Shown one piece after another: positions 13,530 through 22,554 of a stretch of 64,000 nucleotides of DNA. The notes under the pieces are model-generated. The model ran no database searches and was not told where the DNA came from. It saw only the letters and a list, made by a program, of their open reading frames with translations. Made by a program: the position numbers and the translations under genes. The stretch is from Occultella gossypii (GTDB lineage: Bacteria > Actinomycetota > Actinomycetes > Actinomycetales > Beutenbergiaceae). The DNA lies in assembly GCF_019947135.1 (NCBI RefSeq), contig NZ_JAGSHT010000014.1, positions 1-64,000 on the forward strand, written 5' to 3'. Within the stretch, counting starts at the first letter, position 1; every line of letters begins with the position of its first letter.

Positions 13530-13898
13530 CGCTGCGAGCCAATCCTCGCGCGAAAGATTGGGTGCCAGGCTAGGGAGCGGGTGGACGGCTTCGCTCAGCC
13601 TCGATCCGCCGTGCGGGTTTGTGAACCGCCCTTGGTTCTGTTCCGTTGTTTATGTGAGCGCCGGGGTGGCGTTCTGTGGTTGATAGTAGCGTCCACGGTG
13701 GACGACGATCCCCCGCGGGAACGGTGCGGTGCGTGCCATATTGGCCTCGAGCCCTCTGTTGGTGTGTCAGCTGTGTCACGTTTCCTGCCACGCTGGGCCT
13801 ATTCGTGCCCTCGGCTGCCCATCAGGGGCATGACCCGGAACCGTTGTGATTGCAACGAAAAGCGCCGTATACCAAGGGTACACGGCGCTCTTTCGGGG
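13530..13898. other. region between the small operon and ssrA
   Basis: Apart from the open but startless minus-strand frame (to about 13637) and the tmRNA terminator at 13861-13889, nothing recognisable is present. No integrase, transposase or second copy of the ssrA 3' end was seen. Confidence 0.5.
13861..13889 (-). terminator. intrinsic terminator of ssrA
   Basis: AGCGCCGTATACC and GGTACACGGCGCT form a 13-bp stem (one mismatch) with an AAG loop. On the minus strand it is followed by TTTTCG, a normal Rho-independent layout, 10 nt after the tmRNA 3' end. Confidence 0.85.
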
Positions 13899-14265
13899 TG
13901 GAGGTGGCGGGAATCGAACCCGCGTCCGACAGTGCGGAACCAGGACTTCTCCGAGTGCAGTCTGCTAGTAGATTTTCTCGGCCCCAGCGATCACGCAGAC
14001 AAGTCGCTGACGGGCCCAGTCACTTAGATGTCCCCGTAGCCCCAGTGACAAAGGCTACGAGCAGTGGCTCTCTAGATGACGCCAGGATCCAGGTCGAGAG
14101 CAAGCCTGGGCTGACGGACCTCTACAGCTCGCTCAGGCGGCGAGTGCGAAGTCGGTGCGCTTGGAATCGGCACCTATTGGTTTGCAAGGAGCGTTTACGA
14201 GATAACCCTGCATCCTCGACTCGCTTCTCCTGGTACGACAACCATCGTCGAAACCGATCACCCCC
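13899..14265 (-). ncRNA. ssrA: tmRNA (transfer-messenger RNA)
   Basis: This 367-nt RNA rescues stalled ribosomes together with SmpB, encoded at 20563. The ends form a tRNA-like acceptor: GGGGGUG at the 5' end pairs with CACCUCC at the 3' end, followed by discriminator A. CCA is only partly encoded (ACCC). GGUUCGAUUCC is the T-loop and UCGGUUUCGACGAUGG is the usual 5' segment. The tag frame lies at 14133-14171 and reads ADSKRTDFALAA then UGA, a typical actinobacterial tag ending ALAA. Pseudoknot-rich sequence fills the rest. A GATAAT -10 box lies just upstream of the 5' end on this strand. Confidence 0.96.
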
Positions 14266-14319
14266 ATGTTGAATTATCAAGCACCGGACCCGATGAAGCG
14301 TGAACCCGATCGGACCAGT

Positions 14320-15453
14320 CTACCTGTCCAACGCCGTCGGGCCCTCATCTATTTCCGCGGCTCGCCCGGCCAGCGCGGCGTCCACCAGCGGCTTGACCAC
14401 AGTGCCGAGCAGTTCGATGGCCCGCAGCGCCTCGCGCTGCGGCACGCCGGTCAGGTCCATCTGGAACACCTGCCGGTCGTGTCCGAGCACCTCGTGCAGT
14501 GCGACGACCCGCTCCGCCACCGACTCCGGTGCGCCGATGAAGTACGCCCCGCCAGGGCTCGCGGTGGCCTCGTACGTGATCTTGTTGGGGATCGGGAAGC
14601 CCCGCTCCGCGGCGATCATCCGCATGGTCTGCAGGTAGTACGGGTAGAAGAAGTCCCGGGCCCCCGCATCGGTCTCGCCGACGAAGCCCATCACGGCGAT
14701 CTCAACGCGTGGCAGGGCGCCGTGCCCGGTGTCGGTGAACGTGTCCCGGTACAGGCCCGCGAGCGGGGCGAAATCGGCTGGGCGACCGCCGATGATCGCG
14801 TAGGTCACCGGCAGCCCCAACTCTCCCGCCCGGGCGGAGGACTCCGGGTTCCCGCCGGTGGCGATACCGATCCGCAGGTGGTCCCCCAAGCCGGGTTTGT
14901 CGACCGGCCGCGGCAGCACCACCGCGTCGGTCAGCGGTGGCCGGAACCTCCCCGACCACGTGATCGGGTGCTGGGAGTCGAGCTCGAGCAGGAGCCGGAC
15001 CTTCTCCTCGAACAGGTCGTCGTAGTCCTCCAGCGCCGCTCCGTACAGCGGGTAGGACTCGATGTAGGAGCCGCGGCCGGCGAGCAGCTCGACCCGCCCG
15101 CCGGAGAACTGGTCCATCGTCGTGAACTGCTGGAAGACCCGCACCGGGTCCTCGGTGCTGAGCACGGTGACGGCGCTGCCCACCCGGATCGTCGACGTCT
15201 GTGCCAGCGCGGCGGCGATCACCGTGCCCGGCGCGGACACCGCGTACTCGGGCCGGTGGTGCTCGCCGATGCCGGCGTAGTCGAGCCCCACCTGCTCGGC
15301 GAGGCGGACCCGCTCGAGTAGGTCCCGGATGCGTTGCCCGGGTGGCGTGCGCTCGCCGGTGTGCGGGTCCGGCATGGTGTCACCGAAGCTGTAGAAGCCC
15401 AGTTCCAGGCCACCGAGGCCCGACGGCGGTGGTGCCGCCGGGCGCATCGTCAC
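14320..15453 (-). CDS. LLM-class flavin/F420-dependent oxidoreductase
   Basis: This luciferase-like monooxygenase of about 377 residues shows ELGFYSFGDT at the start, LAEQVGLDYAGIGEHH (the family's EHH motif), RVGSAVTVLSTEDPVRVFQQF, and GGRVELLAGRGSYIESYPLYG. Members use FMN or F420 to oxidise or reduce diverse substrates. The GTG start overlaps the stop of the upstream DoxX gene (GTGA), and a nearby ATG at 15447 is also possible. Together with the DoxX-like protein it forms a two-gene operon. The substrate is not predictable from sequence. Confidence 0.9.
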   Translation of the reverse strand: MTMRPAAPPPSGLGGLELGFYSFGDTMPDPHTGERTPPGQRIRDLLERVRLAEQVGLDYAGIGEHHRPEYAVSAPGTVIAAALAQTSTIRVGSAVTVLSTEDPVRVFQQFTTMDQFSGGRVELLAGRGSYIESYPLYGAALEDYDDLFEEKVRLLLELDSQHPITWSGRFRPPLTDAVVLPRPVDKPGLGDHLRIGIATGGNPESSARAGELGLPVTYAIIGGRPADFAPLAGLYRDTFTDTGHGALPRVEIAVMGFVGETDAGARDFFYPYYLQTMRMIAAERGFPIPNKITYEATASPGGAYFIGAPESVAERVVALHEVLGHDRQVFQMDLTGVPQREALRAIELLGTVVKPLVDAALAGRAAEIDEGPTALDR

Positions 15454-15869
15454 GCCTTCCGCTTGTTGCCGCCGTCGAGCAGCAGTGCGAGGCCGATCGC
15501 CAGGAGGAACACGTCCTTGGCGAGAGCGACGCCCTGCGGGGTCGGGCGGACCCCGTCGGCCTCGGTCATGCCGGGAGATTTCAGGTACATCGTGACGAGG
15601 CCGGTCGCGAACACGGTCAGGCCCAGGCCGACGAGCCTGCTCGGCAGGAACGGCGCGAGCAGCGCGGTCCCGAGGGCGATCTCCCCCGCCGCGAGGTATT
15701 TGCCGAACTGCTCCGCATCGAGGTCACCCAACTGCGGAATGGCGTTGGTCGCCAGGGACTGCAGCCCCTTCGCCGACTCGGCGTCCAGGTCGAGTTTGCC
15801 GATGCCCGAGTTGAGCAGGAACGCGCCGGAGGCGAGGCGAAGGGGAAGACGACGAAGGGCGAATGCCAC
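15450..15869 (-). CDS. DoxX-like small membrane protein
   Basis: A 139-residue protein with about four hydrophobic segments (LRLASGAFLLNSGIGKLDLD, LAAGEIALGTALLAPFLPS, LVGLGLTVFATGLVTMYL, VFLLAIGLALLLDGG) in the DoxX/SURF4-like pattern. It starts with GTG, supported by AGGAG 7 nt upstream, and overlaps the oxidoreductase start by four bases (GTGA). DoxX-like proteins are often linked to redox enzymes in the membrane, which suits this pairing. The exact role is unknown. Confidence 0.8.
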   Translation of the reverse strand: MAFALRRLPLRLASGAFLLNSGIGKLDLDAESAKGLQSLATNAIPQLGDLDAEQFGKYLAAGEIALGTALLAPFLPSRLVGLGLTVFATGLVTMYLKSPGMTEADGVRPTPQGVALAKDVFLLAIGLALLLDGGNKRKA

Positions 15870-15946
15870 GGGAGGACTCCTGAAGGTGATCGACCGAGGC
15901 CGAGGCGAGGTCCGCCGTCGGCCACTTCCAGGTTAGACGCCGTGAC

Positions 15947-17845
15947 TCACCACCCGCCACCGCCACCGCCACCGATGCCGCCGCCCGAGAAGCCGCCGCC
16001 GGAGGAGAACCCGGAGCCGCCGCTCGATGCGGGTGTCGCCGCGATCGCGGTGGTCGCGATGTCGCTGAACGAGTTGATGCTGCTGGCGAACCCGGATGCC
16101 CAGATCGCGGTCCCGACGCCGTAGTGCGGGCCGATGTACCAGGTCGGCTCGGGCACCGGGGCGCCCTGCGCGGCCAGCTGGCTGAACAGGCCGGCCCACC
16201 GCTCGGCGACCCCGAACGCGATCGCGTACGGCAGGTACCGGGAGAATATGTCCTCGCCCTCCTCGAACCGGATCTGGTCGGCCTCCGCCTTCTCCAGGTA
16301 CTGCTTGAACCCGAGCGCCTGCGCCAGCACGGCGGTCCCTGCGGCGGTCCTGGCGGGTGCGGCCCCACTGAGCGCCATCGCCAGGATGCCGACCAGGATC
16401 AGCGGCACCCCGAGCACCGCCAATCCGGCGAGTAGGCCGAGCCCGACCGTGGCGACCACCCCGACCACGAGGGCGATGATCCCCAGCCCCACCCATCGCT
16501 GCCGGACCCCCTGCGGGGACTCGGCGAACCAGCCCCGGGCCACCACCTCGGCGTACAGCGCCCGCTGGGCACCCGACATCACCTCGTGGAAGGTGGTGCT
16601 CAGCTCCGTCAGAGTGGTCTCCTGGGCGGAACTGTGCGGGAAGAAGCCGCGCAGTAACGTCACCTCGAAGTCGGGCAGGTCGGACCAGTCCCGGTCCATG
16701 GTGCGGATCAGACGCCAGTCCGGCTTGTCCTTGCCCTCCGCCGGGAGCTCCTCGATGGTGAGGTAGCCGCGCACCGCGAGGTCGATGATCGTGGCGGTCA
16801 CGTCATGGGGGTCGGCGACCTCGTCGGTCAGGGTGCCGATCTCGCCCGGCCGCACGCCCGCCGGCGGCGTGAACTGGACCGCGATCGGGCGCTTGCGGCG
16901 CGGCCCGGTGTCGCCGGCGTCGATGGACGTCGGGGCCAGCCCGGGCGTGAGACCGAGGTACTCGCGGTCGCGCCCGCGCCGGCGCGCCCGTACTCCGATC
17001 AGGCCCAGGCCACCGACGGCGGCCACCGCTGCGATGATGCCGGCCGGACCGTCGACGCCGAGGGAGTTCGAGAACGTGCGCCGCGGTGTGAGGATCGGCT
17101 CCACGCCCCCGAACGAGCCCTCCGGGTAAGCCAGGATGACGCTCATCCCCTCCCCTGGCTCGAGCCGGCCCTGCGTGAAGGTGGCGGAACCGCCGTCGAC
17201 GTCGAACGAGTCGCAACGGGTACGCGAGCCCACGTCGCCGACCCGGCAGTCTGCCTCCACGACCGGCGCCGCCGCCATGACGGCCACGGAGATGTTCTCC
17301 AGCGGGATCTCCCACGCGGAGCCGATCACGTTCCAGTAGATCTCGTCCTCGCCGGCCGCGCCGACGCCGGAGTTCGGGACACCCGCGACCGTGTACGAGA
17401 CCACGTAGTCCTGGACGCCGGAGACGTCGTCGATCCGCTCGTCGCCGATCCGGATGGCCAGGCCGTTGTCCTGGCGGTCCGTCTGGACGTCGTCCGGCGC
17501 CCCCGAAGGGCTCATCGCCTGCACGTCCGTGATCTCCAGGACCCGGTAGTGGTCCGGGTCGTCGGCGATCTCCTGCCGGGTGACGAGCGTCAGGTAGGGG
17601 CCGTGCCCGGGGGTATCGGCGAAGTCGAACGAGAAGTCCAGGAGCACGTCCATGGTCCCGTCCGGGTTCGCCGTGGCGGTGACGTCGTAGCGGGTGATGG
17701 CCCGGTCGCCCTGATCGTCGTCGGCGTGGGCCGGTGCCGCTCCCGCGGCCAGAGCGGTGACCGCCAGCACGAGGGCGAGGGTGAGGCCGAGCAGGAGGCC
17801 GACGGCGGACCGGACGTGGTGGGCGATCGTGGAGTTGGCCGGCAT
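15947..17845 (-). CDS. DUF2207 membrane protein with Gly-rich tail
   Basis: This protein of about 632 residues has the DUF2207 layout. A signal peptide (VGLLLGLTLALVLAVTALAAG...AHA) is followed by an extracellular beta-rich domain with the ITRYDVTATANPDGTMDV motif and a membrane segment (GIIAAVAAVGGLGLIGV). A cytoplasmic region with a winged-helix-like VTATIIDLAVRGYLTIEE comes next, then two more membrane segments. The tail is SGGGFSGGGIGGGGGGGW. ATG 17845 is preferred over 17854 because a TACGAT box ends 7 nt before it (leaderless). The function is unknown; the tail is typical of the family. The C-terminus faces the DoxX gene across a short gap. Confidence 0.88.
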   Translation of the reverse strand: MPANSTIAHHVRSAVGLLLGLTLALVLAVTALAAGAAPAHADDDQGDRAITRYDVTATANPDGTMDVLLDFSFDFADTPGHGPYLTLVTRQEIADDPDHYRVLEITDVQAMSPSGAPDDVQTDRQDNGLAIRIGDERIDDVSGVQDYVVSYTVAGVPNSGVGAAGEDEIYWNVIGSAWEIPLENISVAVMAAAPVVEADCRVGDVGSRTRCDSFDVDGGSATFTQGRLEPGEGMSVILAYPEGSFGGVEPILTPRRTFSNSLGVDGPAGIIAAVAAVGGLGLIGVRARRRGRDREYLGLTPGLAPTSIDAGDTGPRRKRPIAVQFTPPAGVRPGEIGTLTDEVADPHDVTATIIDLAVRGYLTIEELPAEGKDKPDWRLIRTMDRDWSDLPDFEVTLLRGFFPHSSAQETTLTELSTTFHEVMSGAQRALYAEVVARGWFAESPQGVRQRWVGLGIIALVVGVVATVGLGLLAGLAVLGVPLILVGILAMALSGAAPARTAAGTAVLAQALGFKQYLEKAEADQIRFEEGEDIFSRYLPYAIAFGVAERWAGLFSQLAAQGAPVPEPTWYIGPHYGVGTAIWASGFASSINSFSDIATTAIAATPASSGGSGFSSGGGFSGGGIGGGGGGGW

Positions 17846-17920
17846 GCCCGCCATCGTAACGAGACGCCTGCGGCGCCGAGGATCACCACGACGGGTAGGA
17901 CTGCCCGGCCGACCGTCCCC

Positions 17921-18637
17921 TCAGAGCGTGCCGCTGGCGAGCGCGTCCTCCTGCCCGGCGAGTCCGATCTCCACGGCCACGATGGCCTCGGTCGGCAGGT
18001 CCGTCGCGGCGCTCAGGCCGCTGGCGCCCCCGCCGGCACTTGTCCACGTCGCGGCGACGGTCCGGGCGCCGTCGGCGTCCACGAGGGTCAGCGTGTATAC
18101 GGCGTCCTCGGGCGGCGCGTACTGGCCGGTCGGATAGCTGCAGTCCCAGCCGAGGCTGGTGCCCCAGGGCCTGGGCGTCAACTGCACGTCCGCGCTCACC
18201 CCGCTGGCATCCACCTGCGTCAGCTCGAGCTCGATGGCGTCGGTGGGCGGGGCGGTGTCCCGTTGGGCGAGCGCGAGGCCACCGACGCCGCCGAGCAGGA
18301 CCAGCGCGATGGCGGCGGCGACCGCGAGGAGCCTCCGACGTAGCGGTGGCCGGGTCCTCGGGCGGAGCGGGGTCACGGGAGCGGGTTCGTCGGCGAGCCG
18401 GGTGCGCGCGGCGTCGGGACTCGCCTCGGAGGGCGGGCCTGGCATCCCGGCGAGCAGGGTGCGGGCGTCCTCGGCGCTCACCTGGGCGAGCAGGCCGGGC
18501 ATCCCGGCCAGGTCGGTCACCGCGGCGCGGCATGCGGGGCACCCGGCCAGGTGCTCCTCGTACTCCCGGCGTTCGGTCGGGCTCAGGGAGCCGAGCACGT
18601 AGGCCCCGTCCCAGTCGGCGTAGCGGTCGGTACTCAT
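17921..18637 (-). CDS. rslA: anti-sigma factor, RslA-like zinc protein
   Basis: This 238-residue transmembrane regulator holds the partner ECF sigma factor inactive. The N-terminal zinc anti-sigma motif is H29-x3-C33-x2-C36 (HLAGCPAC). A single membrane helix (LLAVAAAIALVLLGGVGGLAL) follows after a proline-rich linker, and the remaining 110 residues are extracytoplasmic. In Mycobacterium tuberculosis RslA the zinc site responds to redox stress. Its start overlaps the sigma factor stop (ATGA, 18634-18637), so the two are translationally coupled. Longer in-frame readings upstream overlap sigL and are rejected. Confidence 0.88.
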   Translation of the reverse strand: MSTDRYADWDGAYVLGSLSPTERREYEEHLAGCPACRAAVTDLAGMPGLLAQVSAEDARTLLAGMPGPPSEASPDAARTRLADEPAPVTPLRPRTRPPLRRRLLAVAAAIALVLLGGVGGLALAQRDTAPPTDAIELELTQVDASGVSADVQLTPRPWGTSLGWDCSYPTGQYAPPEDAVYTLTLVDADGARTVAATWTSAGGGASGLSAATDLPTEAIVAVEIGLAGQEDALASGTL

Positions 18638-19140
18638 GGGGTGACCCCTTTCTCCTGCAGCGCAAGCCGCAGAGCTCGCATGGCGTAGTGCATGCGGGAC
18701 TTCACGGTGCCCTCCGGCACCTCCAGCTCGACGGCCAGCTCGGCCACGGATCGGCCCCCGAAGTACGCACCGACGACGACGGCCCGGTGGTCCGGGCTCA
18801 GCCCCAGCAGTGCCTCGGTGATCAGCCACGAGTCCAGGACGGCCATGGTCTCGTCGCCACCGCTGCGCTCGGGCAGGTGCTCGGTCGTCCGCTCCCGGGT
18901 GCTGCGCGCGCTGCGGCGGTCGTCGATGACGAGGTTGCGAGCCACGGTGAACAGCCACGCCCGGCGCGGCCCCTCCGCGCGTTCCATGACCTCCGGGTGG
19001 TGCCAGGCGCGGACCAGGGTCTCCTGGACCACGTCCTGGGCGAACGCCTCGTCGCCGGTCAGCGAGACGACGTACCGGTGCAGCGCCGAGGCGTGCGCCT
19101 CGTGCAGGGCGCGCAGGTTCGCGTCCGCCTCACTGGTCAT
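18634..19140 (-). CDS. sigL: ECF RNA polymerase sigma factor SigL-like
   Basis: This 168-residue ECF sigma factor has region 2 (DVVQETLVRAWHHPEV, then RRAWLFTVARNLVIDDRRSAR) and region 4 (SVAELAVELEVPEGTVKSRMHYAMRALRLALQEKGVT). It is strikingly like M. tuberculosis SigL in both regions and in its C-terminal end. Its start overlaps the yceI stop (ATGA) and its stop overlaps rslA. Two promoters with SigL-type elements flank the operon head (see 19869 and 19906), so it probably autoregulates. SigL in mycobacteria controls envelope and secreted-protein genes, which matches the neighbouring YceI and lipoprotein genes. Confidence 0.9.
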   Translation of the reverse strand: MTSEADANLRALHEAHASALHRYVVSLTGDEAFAQDVVQETLVRAWHHPEVMERAEGPRRAWLFTVARNLVIDDRRSARSTRERTTEHLPERSGGDETMAVLDSWLITEALLGLSPDHRAVVVGAYFGGRSVAELAVELEVPEGTVKSRMHYAMRALRLALQEKGVTP

Positions 19141-19808
19141 GACGTGGCCGGCTCCCAGAGCAGGGAGAACTCGATCTCGCCGTCGGGGTCCACCACCACG
19201 AATCCCAGGTCCGGAGCCGCCACACCGAAGTCGGAGAACGTGACTCCGATCGCCCCGACCACCTGGATCGCGCCGGCGGAGTCGACGGCGACACTGGCGT
19301 CGAACTCGACCGGGAGCGTCACGCCGTGGACCGTCAGGTCACCGGAGAGCGTGACGTCAGTTCCGCCGTCGGGCAGTTCGGCCGGCGCCGTGAGCGTGAA
19401 CGTGGCAGTCGGGAACGTACCGACCTCCATCGCGGTACCCCGGAAGTAGGCGTCGCGGGGCGGTTGGTCCGTCGCGATGCTCTCGACGTCCACGATGACC
19501 TCCGCGGCAGCCACGGCGCCGTCGGCGATCGTGAGCGTGCCGTCCACGGTCTCGGTGCGGCCGACCACGTTCGCGTCGTTGCCCTGGAGCACCTCGTGCA
19601 CCCGGTACCCGGCGTACGAACCTGCCGCCAGGGTCCAGTCGCCGTCCAGCGCGGCCGGATCCAACGACGATTCGCTGCCGCTGGTCAGTTCCGGCGGCGC
19701 GGCCGCGGACCGGTTGGCCAGGTCGGCGTACAGGCGTGGTCCGAACACCACCCCACTGACGATCAGCACCCCAGCAACCACGATGACTCCGATCGTCCGT
19801 GCCCGCAT
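19137..19808 (-). CDS. membrane-anchored YceI-family protein
   Basis: This 223-residue protein has an N-terminal membrane anchor (TIGVIVVAGVLIVSGVVFG, about 5-23) and a YceI lipocalin-like barrel outside the membrane. It shows WTLAAGSYAGYRVHEVL, the paired repeats VDGTLTIADGAVAAAEVIVDV and TFPTATFTLTAP, and ends in EFSLLWEP. YceI proteins bind long isoprenoid lipids. The ATG follows GGAGG at 10 nt; upstream codons in the same frame are discarded. It heads the yceI-sigL-rslA operon, driven by the promoter at 19869-19896. Confidence 0.88.
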   Translation of the reverse strand: MRARTIGVIVVAGVLIVSGVVFGPRLYADLANRSAAAPPELTSGSESSLDPAALDGDWTLAAGSYAGYRVHEVLQGNDANVVGRTETVDGTLTIADGAVAAAEVIVDVESIATDQPPRDAYFRGTAMEVGTFPTATFTLTAPAELPDGGTDVTLSGDLTVHGVTLPVEFDASVAVDSAGAIQVVGAIGVTFSDFGVAAPDLGFVVVDPDGEIEFSLLWEPATS

Positions 19809-19868
19809 GGCCCGTGTCCCTCCATGATCGACCCGATCACCCGACGATTGCGAGCGATCCTCACCCCA

Positions 19869-19896
19869 TAGACGAGCCACCGTGCCGATCGGTTCA
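19869..19896 (-). promoter_or_regulatory. SigL-type promoter for yceI-sigL-rslA
   Basis: On the minus strand TGAACC (19891-19896) is separated by exactly 16 nt from CGTCTA (19869-19874), matching the TGAACC-N16-CGT pattern reported for SigL. It lies 60 nt before the yceI start. Confidence 0.8.
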
Positions 19897-19905
19897 GAGG
19901 ACGGG

Positions 19906-19933
19906 TGAACCTGGGGCGGCCCCGTCCCGTTAT
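19906..19933 (+). promoter_or_regulatory. SigL-type promoter for the lipoprotein gene
   Basis: TGAACC (19906-19911) is separated by exactly 16 nt from CGTTAT (19928-19933), and points away from the minus-strand promoter 9 nt away. It lies 70 nt before the lipoprotein start. Confidence 0.8.
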
Positions 19934-20003
19934 CCGGGTGAAGCGCCGGCCGGAGGCGGCAACCTGCCGCCATTCGGGCCGGCCCGACGAAGGAGTGCGA
20001 ATC

Positions 20004-20537
20004 ATGCGCCGAACCCACCGCATCCTCATCAGCGCGCTGGCCGCTGGTGCGCTGAGCACCGCCCTGGTGGCCTGTTCCTCGCCCGACGGGGAGGACGCCC
20101 CGGAGGCCCCGGACTCGGAGACCACGGAGGAGGCAACGACCGATCCCGCCGAGGAGGAGACCGACGATGCCGGGGCGATGGGCGACGTCGACCTCGCCAC
20201 GGCCGAGACCTCGCTCGGCGAGGTCATCGTCGACGGCGCCGGCCTGACCGCCTACTACTTCAGCAACGACGTCCCCGACTCGGGTACGAGCGCGTGCGAG
20301 GGCGAGTGCCTGGTCAACTGGCCGCCGATCACGACCGAGTCGGAGACGCCGACGGTCGAGGGGGTCACCGCCGAGGTGGGCACGATCACCGCGGCGGACG
20401 GCTCGCTCCAGATCACCGTCGACGGCAGGCCGATCTACCTGTTCGTCGGTGACGCCGCGCCCGGGGACGTGAACGGACAGGCCGTACAGGACGTGTGGTG
20501 GGTGATCGCGCCGGACGGCAGCGAGATCAGCGACTGA
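20004..20537 (+). CDS. secreted lipoprotein of the COG4315 type
   Basis: This 177-residue protein has a signal peptide ending in a lipobox (LSTALVACSS), an acidic Glu/Asp/Thr-rich linker, and a globular domain with the GLTAYYFSNDV motif (Y-x-[FWY]-x-x-D type). A second RPIYLFVGD copy and CEGECLVNWPPI follow. The two repeats define the COG4315 family of predicted lipoproteins, whose function is unknown. AAGGAG lies 8 nt before the ATG. It is divergent from yceI-sigL-rslA and has its own SigL-type promoter, so it is a probable member of the same regulon. Confidence 0.88.
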   Translation: MRRTHRILISALAAGALSTALVACSSPDGEDAPEAPDSETTEEATTDPAEEETDDAGAMGDVDLATAETSLGEVIVDGAGLTAYYFSNDVPDSGTSACEGECLVNWPPITTESETPTVEGVTAEVGTITAADGSLQITVDGRPIYLFVGDAAPGDVNGQAVQDVWWVIAPDGSEISD

Positions 20538-20559
20538 GTCGCGCCGCGACCGTCAGGTG

Positions 20560-20599
20560 GGCTCAGCGGGCCCGGCGCAGACTCATGGCCCGCTGAGCC
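20560..20599. terminator. bidirectional terminator between lipoprotein gene and smpB
   Basis: GGCTCAGCGGGCC and GGCCCGCTGAGCC are perfect 13-nt arms around a 14-nt loop. The hairpin covers the last codons of smpB and lies 22 nt after the lipoprotein stop, so it could end both convergent transcripts. There is no T-run. Confidence 0.65.
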
Positions 20600-21078
20600 T
20601 CGCGGGTGTCCTGCTGCTCGCGGAGCGTCTGCCGCTTGTCCCATTCCTGCTTGCCTCGGGCGAGCGCGATCTCGACCTTCGCGCGGCCGCCGAGGAAGTA
20701 CAGCTCGAGCGGGACGATCGTGTGCCCCTTCTCCCGGGTCTTCGCGGACAGCTTCTCGATCTCAGCGCGGTGCAGCAGCAGCTTGCGCTTGCGGCGGGGC
20801 GTGTGGTTCGTCCAGGTGCCCTCGACGTACTCGGGGATGTGCACGCCCTCGAGCCACGCCTCGCCGCCGTCGATGTGGATCCAGCCGTCCACCAGGGAGG
20901 CACGGCCGGCCCGCAGGGACTTCACCTCGGTGCCGGTCAGGGACATGCCCGCCTCGTAGGTGGCATCGATGTGATAGTCGTGCCGGGCCTTCTTGTTCCG
21001 GGCGACCACGACCTTGGTGGTCTTGGGGTCGTTCGCGGCCGAGGCCTTCTTCTTCGCGCCCTTGGCTGCGTTACTCAT
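20563..21078 (-). CDS. smpB: SsrA-binding protein SmpB
   Basis: This 171-residue protein is the tmRNA partner in trans-translation. It shows [33 protein letters not shown], then [26 protein letters not shown], the [11 protein letters not shown] strand and the basic tail [15 protein letters not shown]. The N-terminal 20 residues are Lys/Ala-rich. ATG 21078 is used; GAAGGAG lies upstream at a longish 11 nt. ssrA itself is about 6.3 kb away, on the same strand, with the sigL and DUF2207 region between them. Confidence 0.97.
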
Positions 21079-21162
21079 GATGTTGCGATCTCCTTCGGGT
21101 GCCACCGATCACCGGTGTGCATCTGTCAGGGTAGAACACCGCAGGCCATGCGTTCGAGGCGA

Positions 21163-22554
21163 TTAGAAGTAGTTCATCGGGTCGACGGTGGAACCGTTGC
21201 GCCAGATCTCGAAGTGGACGTGGCAACCAGTGACGTTCCCGGTCGCGCCGGTGTAGCCGATCACCTGCCCCTGGCTGACCCGGTCACCGACGCTCGTGTT
21301 GAACCGGGACAGGTGGTTGTAGACGGTCACGTAGGACCGCGCGCCGATCACACCGTGGTCGATCATCACCTGGTTGCCGTGGGTGCCGTTGCCGGCCGCG
21401 CCGCGCACGGCGATCACCCGGCCGGCCGCGGAGGCCATCTGGGCCTCCCCGCAGCTCGAGCGCAGGTCGACGCCGTTGTGCATGAACCAGCCGCCGGTGA
21501 TCGGGTACACACGGTAGCCGTACGAGGAGGTGACGTGCAGCGAGCGGGAGATCGGCGGGATGAAGATCGATCCCGACGGAGGCGCGGGCACACCGCCACC
21601 GCCACCGCCGCCGCCACCGCTGCCGCCACCGCCACCGCCGCTGTTCTGCTGTGCGGCGAGGGCGGCCTCCTGGCGAGCACGTTCGGCCGCCTGCTCGGCG
21701 GCGAGGGCGCTGATCTCGGAGGCGATCTGCTGGTTCTCGGCCTCGAGTTCTGCCTGACGGTCCGCCTGCTCGGCCTTGAGGGTCTCGAGCGAGGCCGCCT
21801 GGGCCTCCTGATCGGCCTTCAGCTGGGCGATCTCGGTGACCAGGTCCGCAGCGGTCTGGCGGGCCACCTCCGCGGCCGCCACGGCGGCCTCGGCCTCGTC
21901 CCTGAGCTCGCTGATGCGGACCTCGACGGCGTCGAGGCGCACCTGGCGGTTGCGGTTGATCGCGGTCAGGTTCTCCAGGTCGGTCAGGGTCTGGTTCTGG
22001 GTCCGCAGAGCCGAGTTCATGACCGAGTACTGGCTGGCGAAGTCCTCGGTGCTGGTGGCGTCGAGGACCACGGCCAGCGCGCTCACCGACCCGTTGCCAC
22101 GGTAGGCCGACCGGGCCACTTCCCCCATGGCGCCTTCGGTCTCGACGATCTCAGCCTCGCCGTCGGCGATCTCGGCGAGCAGGTCCGCCTGTTGGCCCTG
22201 CGCGATCTCGAGGCGCGACTGCACCGAGTCACGGTGCCGTTCGGCGGCGGCCAGCTCCGCGTTCGCGGTGACCAGTTCCGCCTCGGCGATCGGCAGCCGG
22301 TAGTTCGTGTCCGCGAGGGCGAGATAGGTGGCCGCGAGCTCGGCGTCGGTGCCCTCCAGCGCCGAGGCGAGCTGCTCCCGTTCGGCGGCGTTCTGATCCT
22401 GCTGGTCCTGCAGATCGTCCATCTCGTCGGCGGCAGCCGGGCCGGTGACGACCACGAAGCCGACGAGGACCGTCAGTGCCGCCGACATCGCGACGCGCCA
22501 CGCGGTGCGGGCAGACCGTCGCACACGGTGGTTGGGGCTGGCGGAGCTCAGCAT
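21163..22554 (-). CDS. M23 peptidoglycan hydrolase with coiled coil (FtsEX-linked)
   Basis: This 463-residue exported enzyme has a signal peptide (SAALTVLVGFVVVTGPAAA) and then about 250 residues of Ala/Glu/Gln-rich coiled coil. A Gly/Ser linker (about 325-345) leads to a LytM/M23 domain with the HNGVDLR motif (HxxxD) and HVHFE (HxH), so the zinc ligands are intact. The layout matches EnvC/RipC-type hydrolases that FtsEX switches on during division, and the gene follows ftsX by 6 nt. The final residues are GSTVDPMNYF. It should cleave peptidoglycan cross-bridges at the septum. Confidence 0.92.
   Translation of the reverse strand: MLSSASPNHRVRRSARTAWRVAMSAALTVLVGFVVVTGPAAADEMDDLQDQQDQNAAEREQLASALEGTDAELAATYLALADTNYRLPIAEAELVTANAELAAAERHRDSVQSRLEIAQGQQADLLAEIADGEAEIVETEGAMGEVARSAYRGNGSVSALAVVLDATSTEDFASQYSVMNSALRTQNQTLTDLENLTAINRNRQVRLDAVEVRISELRDEAEAAVAAAEVARQTAADLVTEIAQLKADQEAQAASLETLKAEQADRQAELEAENQQIASEISALAAEQAAERARQEAALAAQQNSGGGGGGSGGGGGGGGGVPAPPSGSIFIPPISRSLHVTSSYGYRVYPITGGWFMHNGVDLRSSCGEAQMASAAGRVIAVRGAAGNGTHGNQVMIDHGVIGARSYVTVYNHLSRFNTSVGDRVSQGQVIGYTGATGNVTGCHVHFEIWRNGSTVDPMNYF

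Follow-up and report, generated by a model that had tools for sequence, protein, structure and literature searches.

Divergent SigL-type promoters probably serve a yceI-sigL-rslA operon and a Lipoprotein_15 gene in Occultella gossypii

The stretch of DNA analysed here (64,000 nucleotides of contig NZ_JAGSHT010000014.1 of Occultella gossypii, in the following the window) carries an operon of three genes on the minus strand and, facing away from it, a lipoprotein gene on the plus strand. The first gene of the operon, yceI (19137..19808, minus), matched Pfam YceI with 84.3 bits (cut-off 23.7), and its ATG at 19808 is preceded by GGAGGG (19823-19818). It is followed by the gene of an ECF sigma factor (18634..19140, minus; NCBIfam NF007227, 220.4 bits, cut-off 202) and by that of a zinc-finger anti-sigma factor (17921..18637, minus; Pfam zf-HC2), the stop of yceI overlapping the start of the sigma gene, and the stop of the latter the start of the anti-sigma gene, by 4 nt each. 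The divergent gene (20004..20537, plus) matched Pfam Lipoprotein_15 in two stretches (94.2 bits) and is presumably of the COG4315 type; AAGGAG (19990-19995) stands before its ATG (20004), and the lipobox LVAC is present in the Occultella homologues of the encoded protein.

The best relative of the sigma factor among proteins of solved structure was SigL of M. tuberculosis (176 bits, compared with 48 for SigK and 47 for SigE), and a search with the anti-sigma factor at E up to 0.1 gave a single protein of solved structure, RslA (3hug_B, 69 bits). Taken together with the NF007227 score above cut-off, these matches justify naming the two proteins as SigL- and RslA-type, and they support the initial annotation, which had read the operon as encoding a SigL/RslA pair. 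Among the loci found, the nearest named relative was that of Occultella aeris, whose sigma protein is 98% identical. In M. tuberculosis RslA, a redox-sensitive protein, the zinc ligands are His25, His50, Cys54 and Cys57 (PMC2877774). The RslA of the window keeps the HxxxCxxC residues and has, as most of its relatives do, Asp in place of the fourth ligand, His25. The DUF2207, DoxX-like and luciferase-like genes located downstream of rslA had matches in Occultella loci only (89 loci, flank up to 4 kb) and were for that reason left out of the conserved unit. A tmRNA gene (13897-14265, minus; tag ADSKRTDFALAA) and smpB (20563-21105, minus; named from its translation) lie about 6 kb apart, and the sigL operon and the DUF2207, DoxX-like, luciferase-like and lipoprotein genes are situated between them.

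Direct reading of positions 19869-19933, between yceI and the lipoprotein gene, revealed two TGAACC-N16-CGT elements facing away from each other. On the operon side the -35 element TGAACC occupies 19896-19891 and the -10 element CGTCTA 19874-19869 (both minus), whereas on the lipoprotein side TGAACC is found at 19906-19911 and CGTTAT at 19928-19933 (both plus). The two TGAACC sequences are separated by 9 nt (19897-19905), so that the position between the two genes, the inverted orientation and the exact 16-nt spacing described in the initial annotation were all confirmed. CGTCTA was also present on the operon side of four other Occultella loci (L032, L033, L034, L040), in which the lipoprotein-side -10 element was CGTTAT (L032, L033, L040) or CGTTGT (L034). 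Neither a sigma-70 promoter nor an intrinsic terminator was found at 14000-21300.

Taken by itself, the window is only mildly unusual in its content of such motifs: TGAACCN15-17CGT occurs four times against 1.31 expected, and four matches were reached in 2 of 100 shuffles. The pair was rated above chance because it is located between two start codons and is conserved. To assess the conservation, the 350 bp preceding the first operon gene were scanned in 86 loci, the set left from 89 once the copy from the window itself (L031) and the near-duplicates L033 and L119 had been removed. TGAACC-N16-CGT was found on the operon strand in 51 of these, on the divergent strand in 19 and as a back-to-back pair in 16, compared with means of 0.11, 0.11 and 0 in 200 shuffled sets, none of which contained a pair; the loci are related to one another and are thus not 86 independent witnesses. 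Each of the other spacings from 8 to 24 was represented by 0-6 of the 86 loci. The strict operon-side element was absent from 35 loci, some of which had TGAACT, an N17 spacing or a more distant element.

The genome-wide search for TGAACC-N16-CGT that the initial annotation had proposed located the element before a second, unlinked Lipoprotein_15 gene. This gene lies on another contig, where TGAACC-N16-CGTCGT precedes its start by roughly 40 nt; the genome contains only these two Lipoprotein_15 genes, hence both carry the element. In the 5.84-Mb genome the more restrictive pattern TGAACC-N15-Y-CGT-H matched 34 times. Of the 30 matches fetched as loci, about 22 lay within coding frames, as judged by frame composition, and one lay in a tRNA-Ser gene; the T-loop sequence of tRNAs, GGTTCA, is complementary to TGAACC. 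The tRNA match (L130, G000:C10:74911), identical in all four Occultella genomes, was dropped as a regulon candidate, as was L125, located within the end of an MFS-like transporter frame (named by eye). No convincing target gene was seen for L129, L132 and L147, which were absent from the match lists of the three other Occultella genomes, or for L136, which was shared with only one of them (G010), and these were also dropped. The loci of the two other yceI genes of the genome contained no TGAAC[C/T]-N16-CGT.

The association of the element with Lipoprotein_15 was followed in 149 sampled genomes of the order, in which SigL was counted at E up to 1e-40. Lipoprotein_15 was present in 22 genomes, SigL in 26 and both in 14 (Fisher p 9e-8, uncorrected for kinship). 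In these 14 genomes TGAAC[C/T]-N16-CGT was found upstream of all 16 Lipoprotein_15 genes (13 with TGAACC, three with TGAACT), whereas in genomes without a close SigL it preceded two of ten genes (a count leaving out one fragment in G036), both situated beside a SigL-like sigma factor of 40-44% identity. Unlinked lipoprotein genes with the element occur in G000, G010, G038, G136 (as TGAACT) and G154. In three SigL genomes of the family outside the sample (G001, G013, G021) an unlinked Lipoprotein_15 gene was without the element; a fourth such genome, G008, has a Lipoprotein_15 gene with it. Over all searched SigL genomes (the sample plus G001, G008, G013 and G021) the element was thus present at 17 of 20 Lipoprotein_15 genes. 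It was also present in 8 of the 12 named SigL loci that contain a Lipoprotein_15 gene, as TGAACC in L042, L050, L074, L076, L094 and L097 and as TGAACT in L041 and L086, and absent from L054, L072, L073 and L109; this count omits L040, a near-duplicate of G008, and L082, where the gene runs to the end of the locus. TGAACT accounted for 5 of the 25 element-bearing genes in the two sets (17 from the genomes and eight from the named loci). Judged from these counts, the association of Lipoprotein_15 with a SigL-type element is strong but not universal. Three of the ten Lipoprotein_15 genes from genomes without a close SigL (L234, L235 and L236, in G018, G016 and G019, respectively) lie beside a distant ECF sigma factor (32-34% identical) and have no TGAACC-N16-CGT, which suggests that the pairing with ECF sigma factors may extend beyond SigL.

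The elements with their spacing and conservation, the identities of the genes and the association with SigL across genomes are, with high probability, best explained if the 65-bp stretch contains two divergent SigL-type ECF promoters, both read by RNA polymerase carrying the SigL encoded at the locus. From this comparative evidence we infer that SigL uses these promoters in the cell, and we infer a signal and co-induction, as follows. The leftward transcript would comprise yceI-sigL-rslA and would provide positive autoregulation together with the brake, RslA, and the rightward transcript would encode the Lipoprotein_15 lipoprotein. RslA would release SigL, perhaps in response to an oxidative or zinc-related signal as for the M. 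tuberculosis protein, upon which both transcripts would rise together instead of excluding each other. The second, unlinked Lipoprotein_15 gene would belong to the same regulon. That the sigma factor probably transcribes its own operon, as had been suggested, is supported by the sequence before that operon and by its conservation (51 of 86 loci against a shuffle mean of 0.11); the corresponding suggestion for the divergent lipoprotein gene draws support from the contrast between the genes of SigL genomes and SigL loci (17/20 and 8/12) and those of genomes without a close SigL (2/10).

The layout of the pair invites two other readings. In the window the two halves of GGTTCA-N9-TGAACC repeat each other perfectly in inverted orientation at a distance of 9 bp, as would be expected if a dimeric regulator bound the whole as one operator and the hexamers were not -35 elements. 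Alternatively, the term perfect divergent switch used in the initial annotation could be taken to mean that polymerase on one promoter blocks the other, so that expression of operon and lipoprotein would alternate; with 9 bp between the -35 elements, two polymerases would make overlapping contacts upstream. Both readings are confronted with the variable distance between the two TGAACC sequences. The window's genome, G008 and G010 have 9 bp between them; the congener G009, with both elements intact, has 34 bp, and the 16 paired loci span a range from 7 to 82 bp. A distance so poorly conserved is evidence against one palindromic operator and also against an arrangement meant for mutual exclusion. 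Since, in addition, a CGT at N16 accompanies either half over this whole range, and a divergent partner is missing from 35 of the 51 loci that have an operon-side element, we regard the operator as very improbable. The switch is not borne out and appears unlikely, exclusion not being a kept feature, although it may arise as a side effect where the gap is 9 bp. Two co-induced outputs of one sigma factor would be the simpler reading.

It could also be argued that the promoters are real but that one or both are mainly used by another ECF sigma factor. A loose first look at the genome yielded 46 ECF-like candidates, promoters of the AAC/CGT type are common to ECF sigma factors (PMC8103513), many of which favour CG immediately before the -10 element (PMC6372665), and in M. 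tuberculosis the sites of SigL, SigE and SigH overlap (PMC4821874). With AAC/CGT promoters so general and the CG preference so widespread, the identity of the sigma factor cannot be read from the element alone. However, in relatives from many genera the element precedes sigL itself, and the Lipoprotein_15 genes beside the distant ECF sigma factor lack it; major use by another sigma factor therefore seems improbable to us.

The closest known system is SigL-RslA of M. tuberculosis, whose sigma and anti-sigma factors look orthologous to those of the window. In vitro, the M. tuberculosis sigma factor directs transcription of sigL from P-sigL (PMC6372665), which resembles the autoregulation proposed here. 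In eight mycobacterial loci whose sigma factor has Asp60, TGAACC-N16-CGT stands before sigL as in the window; unlike the window, these loci contain no match to yceI or Lipoprotein_15. Lipoprotein co-regulation is reminiscent of Streptomyces SigU, an ECF sigma factor with the secreted SCO0930 in its regulon (PMC6295645). Among NCBIfam families the window's lipoprotein matched SCO0930_lipo alone, scoring 115.9 bits, below the cut-off of 275; SigU is a different ECF sigma factor from the SigL of the window, and the likeness noted concerns regulon content. Autoregulation and lipoprotein co-regulation, both of which very probably operate at this locus, are known principles, to which a recurrent divergent layout and a probable second regulon member would be added. 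No description of the divergent arrangement, or of YceI together with Lipoprotein_15 under SigL, was found in the titles and abstract openings searched, a scope that does not include Hahn 2005 and Dainese 2006. A pattern noticed by eye is turned into a testable regulon, with a SigL-type promoter before both Lipoprotein_15 genes and conservation in many actinobacteria, and a regulatory and contextual clue is gained to a family described as a secreted repeat of unknown function.

The initial annotation had also stated that the two promoters match the pattern of M. tuberculosis SigL. Following that annotation, we take TGAACC to be the -35 element of that sigma factor. The hexamer was not found in the main text of PMC6372665. 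With respect to the -10 element the statement holds for CGT: both promoters have T at '-12', and the sigma factor of the window keeps His54, the SigL residue that goes with this base, as well as Trp68. It does not hold for the base after CGT ('-11'), where M. tuberculosis SigL is most selective and where G is read by Asp60 (PMC6372665). At the window locus Arg replaces Asp60, and the operon-side and lipoprotein promoters have C and T, respectively, at '-11'. The sigma factor is thus, as judged by its sequence, a SigL relative that may not share the M. tuberculosis reading of the -10 element, and a shift in this reading is probable at the locus.

To see how far residue 60 and the '-11' base go together, 110 SigL relatives were compared, 77 of which had an operon-side TGAAC[C/T]-N16-CGT within 350 bp. 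G was the '-11' base for 10 of 11 sigma factors with Asp60; with Gln60 (n = 29) the bases were G 19, T 8, A 1 and C 1, and with Arg60 (n = 27) C 18, A 5, T 3 and G 1, the remaining 10 of the 77 having other residues at this position. Because the Arg60 sequences belong mostly to one clade and a quick tree gave only two independent contrasts on well-supported branches, the covariation is a lead and not a demonstration. Against it stand Arg60 sigma factors with G (L046) or T (L053, L100, L199), a lipoprotein promoter with CGTG beside an Arg60 sigma factor (G076) and the divergent CGTT of the window itself. One genome (G110) has two SigL paralogues, of which L213 combines Arg60 with CGTC and L220 Asp60 with CGTG, each at its own TGAACT-N16-CGT element. 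The role of loop L3 in setting the '-11' base is known in principle for ECF sigma factors, with examples for C, T, A and G, and holds for E. coli sigma-E and others with a modular L3 loop (PMC6372665). That comparison spans distant ECF groups, whereas in the case of SigL the change seemingly took place inside one family; such a natural change would be new, and the Asp60, Gln60 and Arg60 sigma factors would form a natural series for studying how ECF sigma factors change their promoter reading.

The gene behind the divergent element varied among the 19 loci: it was Lipoprotein_15 in seven (L032, L034, L040, L042, L050, L076, L097), a Rieske protein in eight (L054, L055, L059, L060, L062, L063, L066, L081), an FMN-binding-type protein in two (L057, which missed the Pfam cut-off by 0.3 bits, and L056, which shares 69% identity with L057) and a gene without family assignment in two (L039, L074). 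Seven of these assignments were made by Pfam and one by the sub-cut-off match, the others by tblastn to a member. A lipobox was present in 13 of the 14 divergent-slot proteins whose N-terminus was checked. Since lipoproteins of the Lipoprotein_15, Rieske and FMN-binding types fill this slot and M. tuberculosis RslA is redox-sensitive, extracytoplasmic redox would be, by the company the genes keep, a better guess for the regulon than general envelope stress; the initial annotation had placed YceI and the lipoprotein in an envelope-stress regulon. Going further, it is conceivable, though we would lean slightly against it, that in the SigL family one loop residue changes the '-11' reading (Asp or Gln with G, Arg with C) and could thereby insulate paralogues in one cell, while the divergent promoter serves as an exchangeable slot for secreted redox lipoproteins. 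If the latter were true, the uncharacterised Lipoprotein_15 family would become an extracytoplasmic redox partner under a redox-sensing sigma/anti-sigma pair.

In seven loci of the Microbacteriaceae type (L055, L056, L057, L059, L062, L074, L081) DUF2231-like and ApbE-like genes, named by eye, lie behind or near the divergent element beside the Rieske or FMN-binding-type lipoproteins, as if these were whole secreted redox modules. TGAACC-N16-CGT was also seen before a DoxX gene in Kribbella and before thiamine-diphosphate enzymes in mycobacteria, Rhodococcus and Nocardia (in Nocardia by translation only). In eight loci (L087, L090, L091, L098, L106, L108, L110, L112; Pfam on L108) such an enzyme is encoded downstream of rslA with its own element, and it is likely to be a SigL target in mycobacteria, Rhodococcus and relatives.
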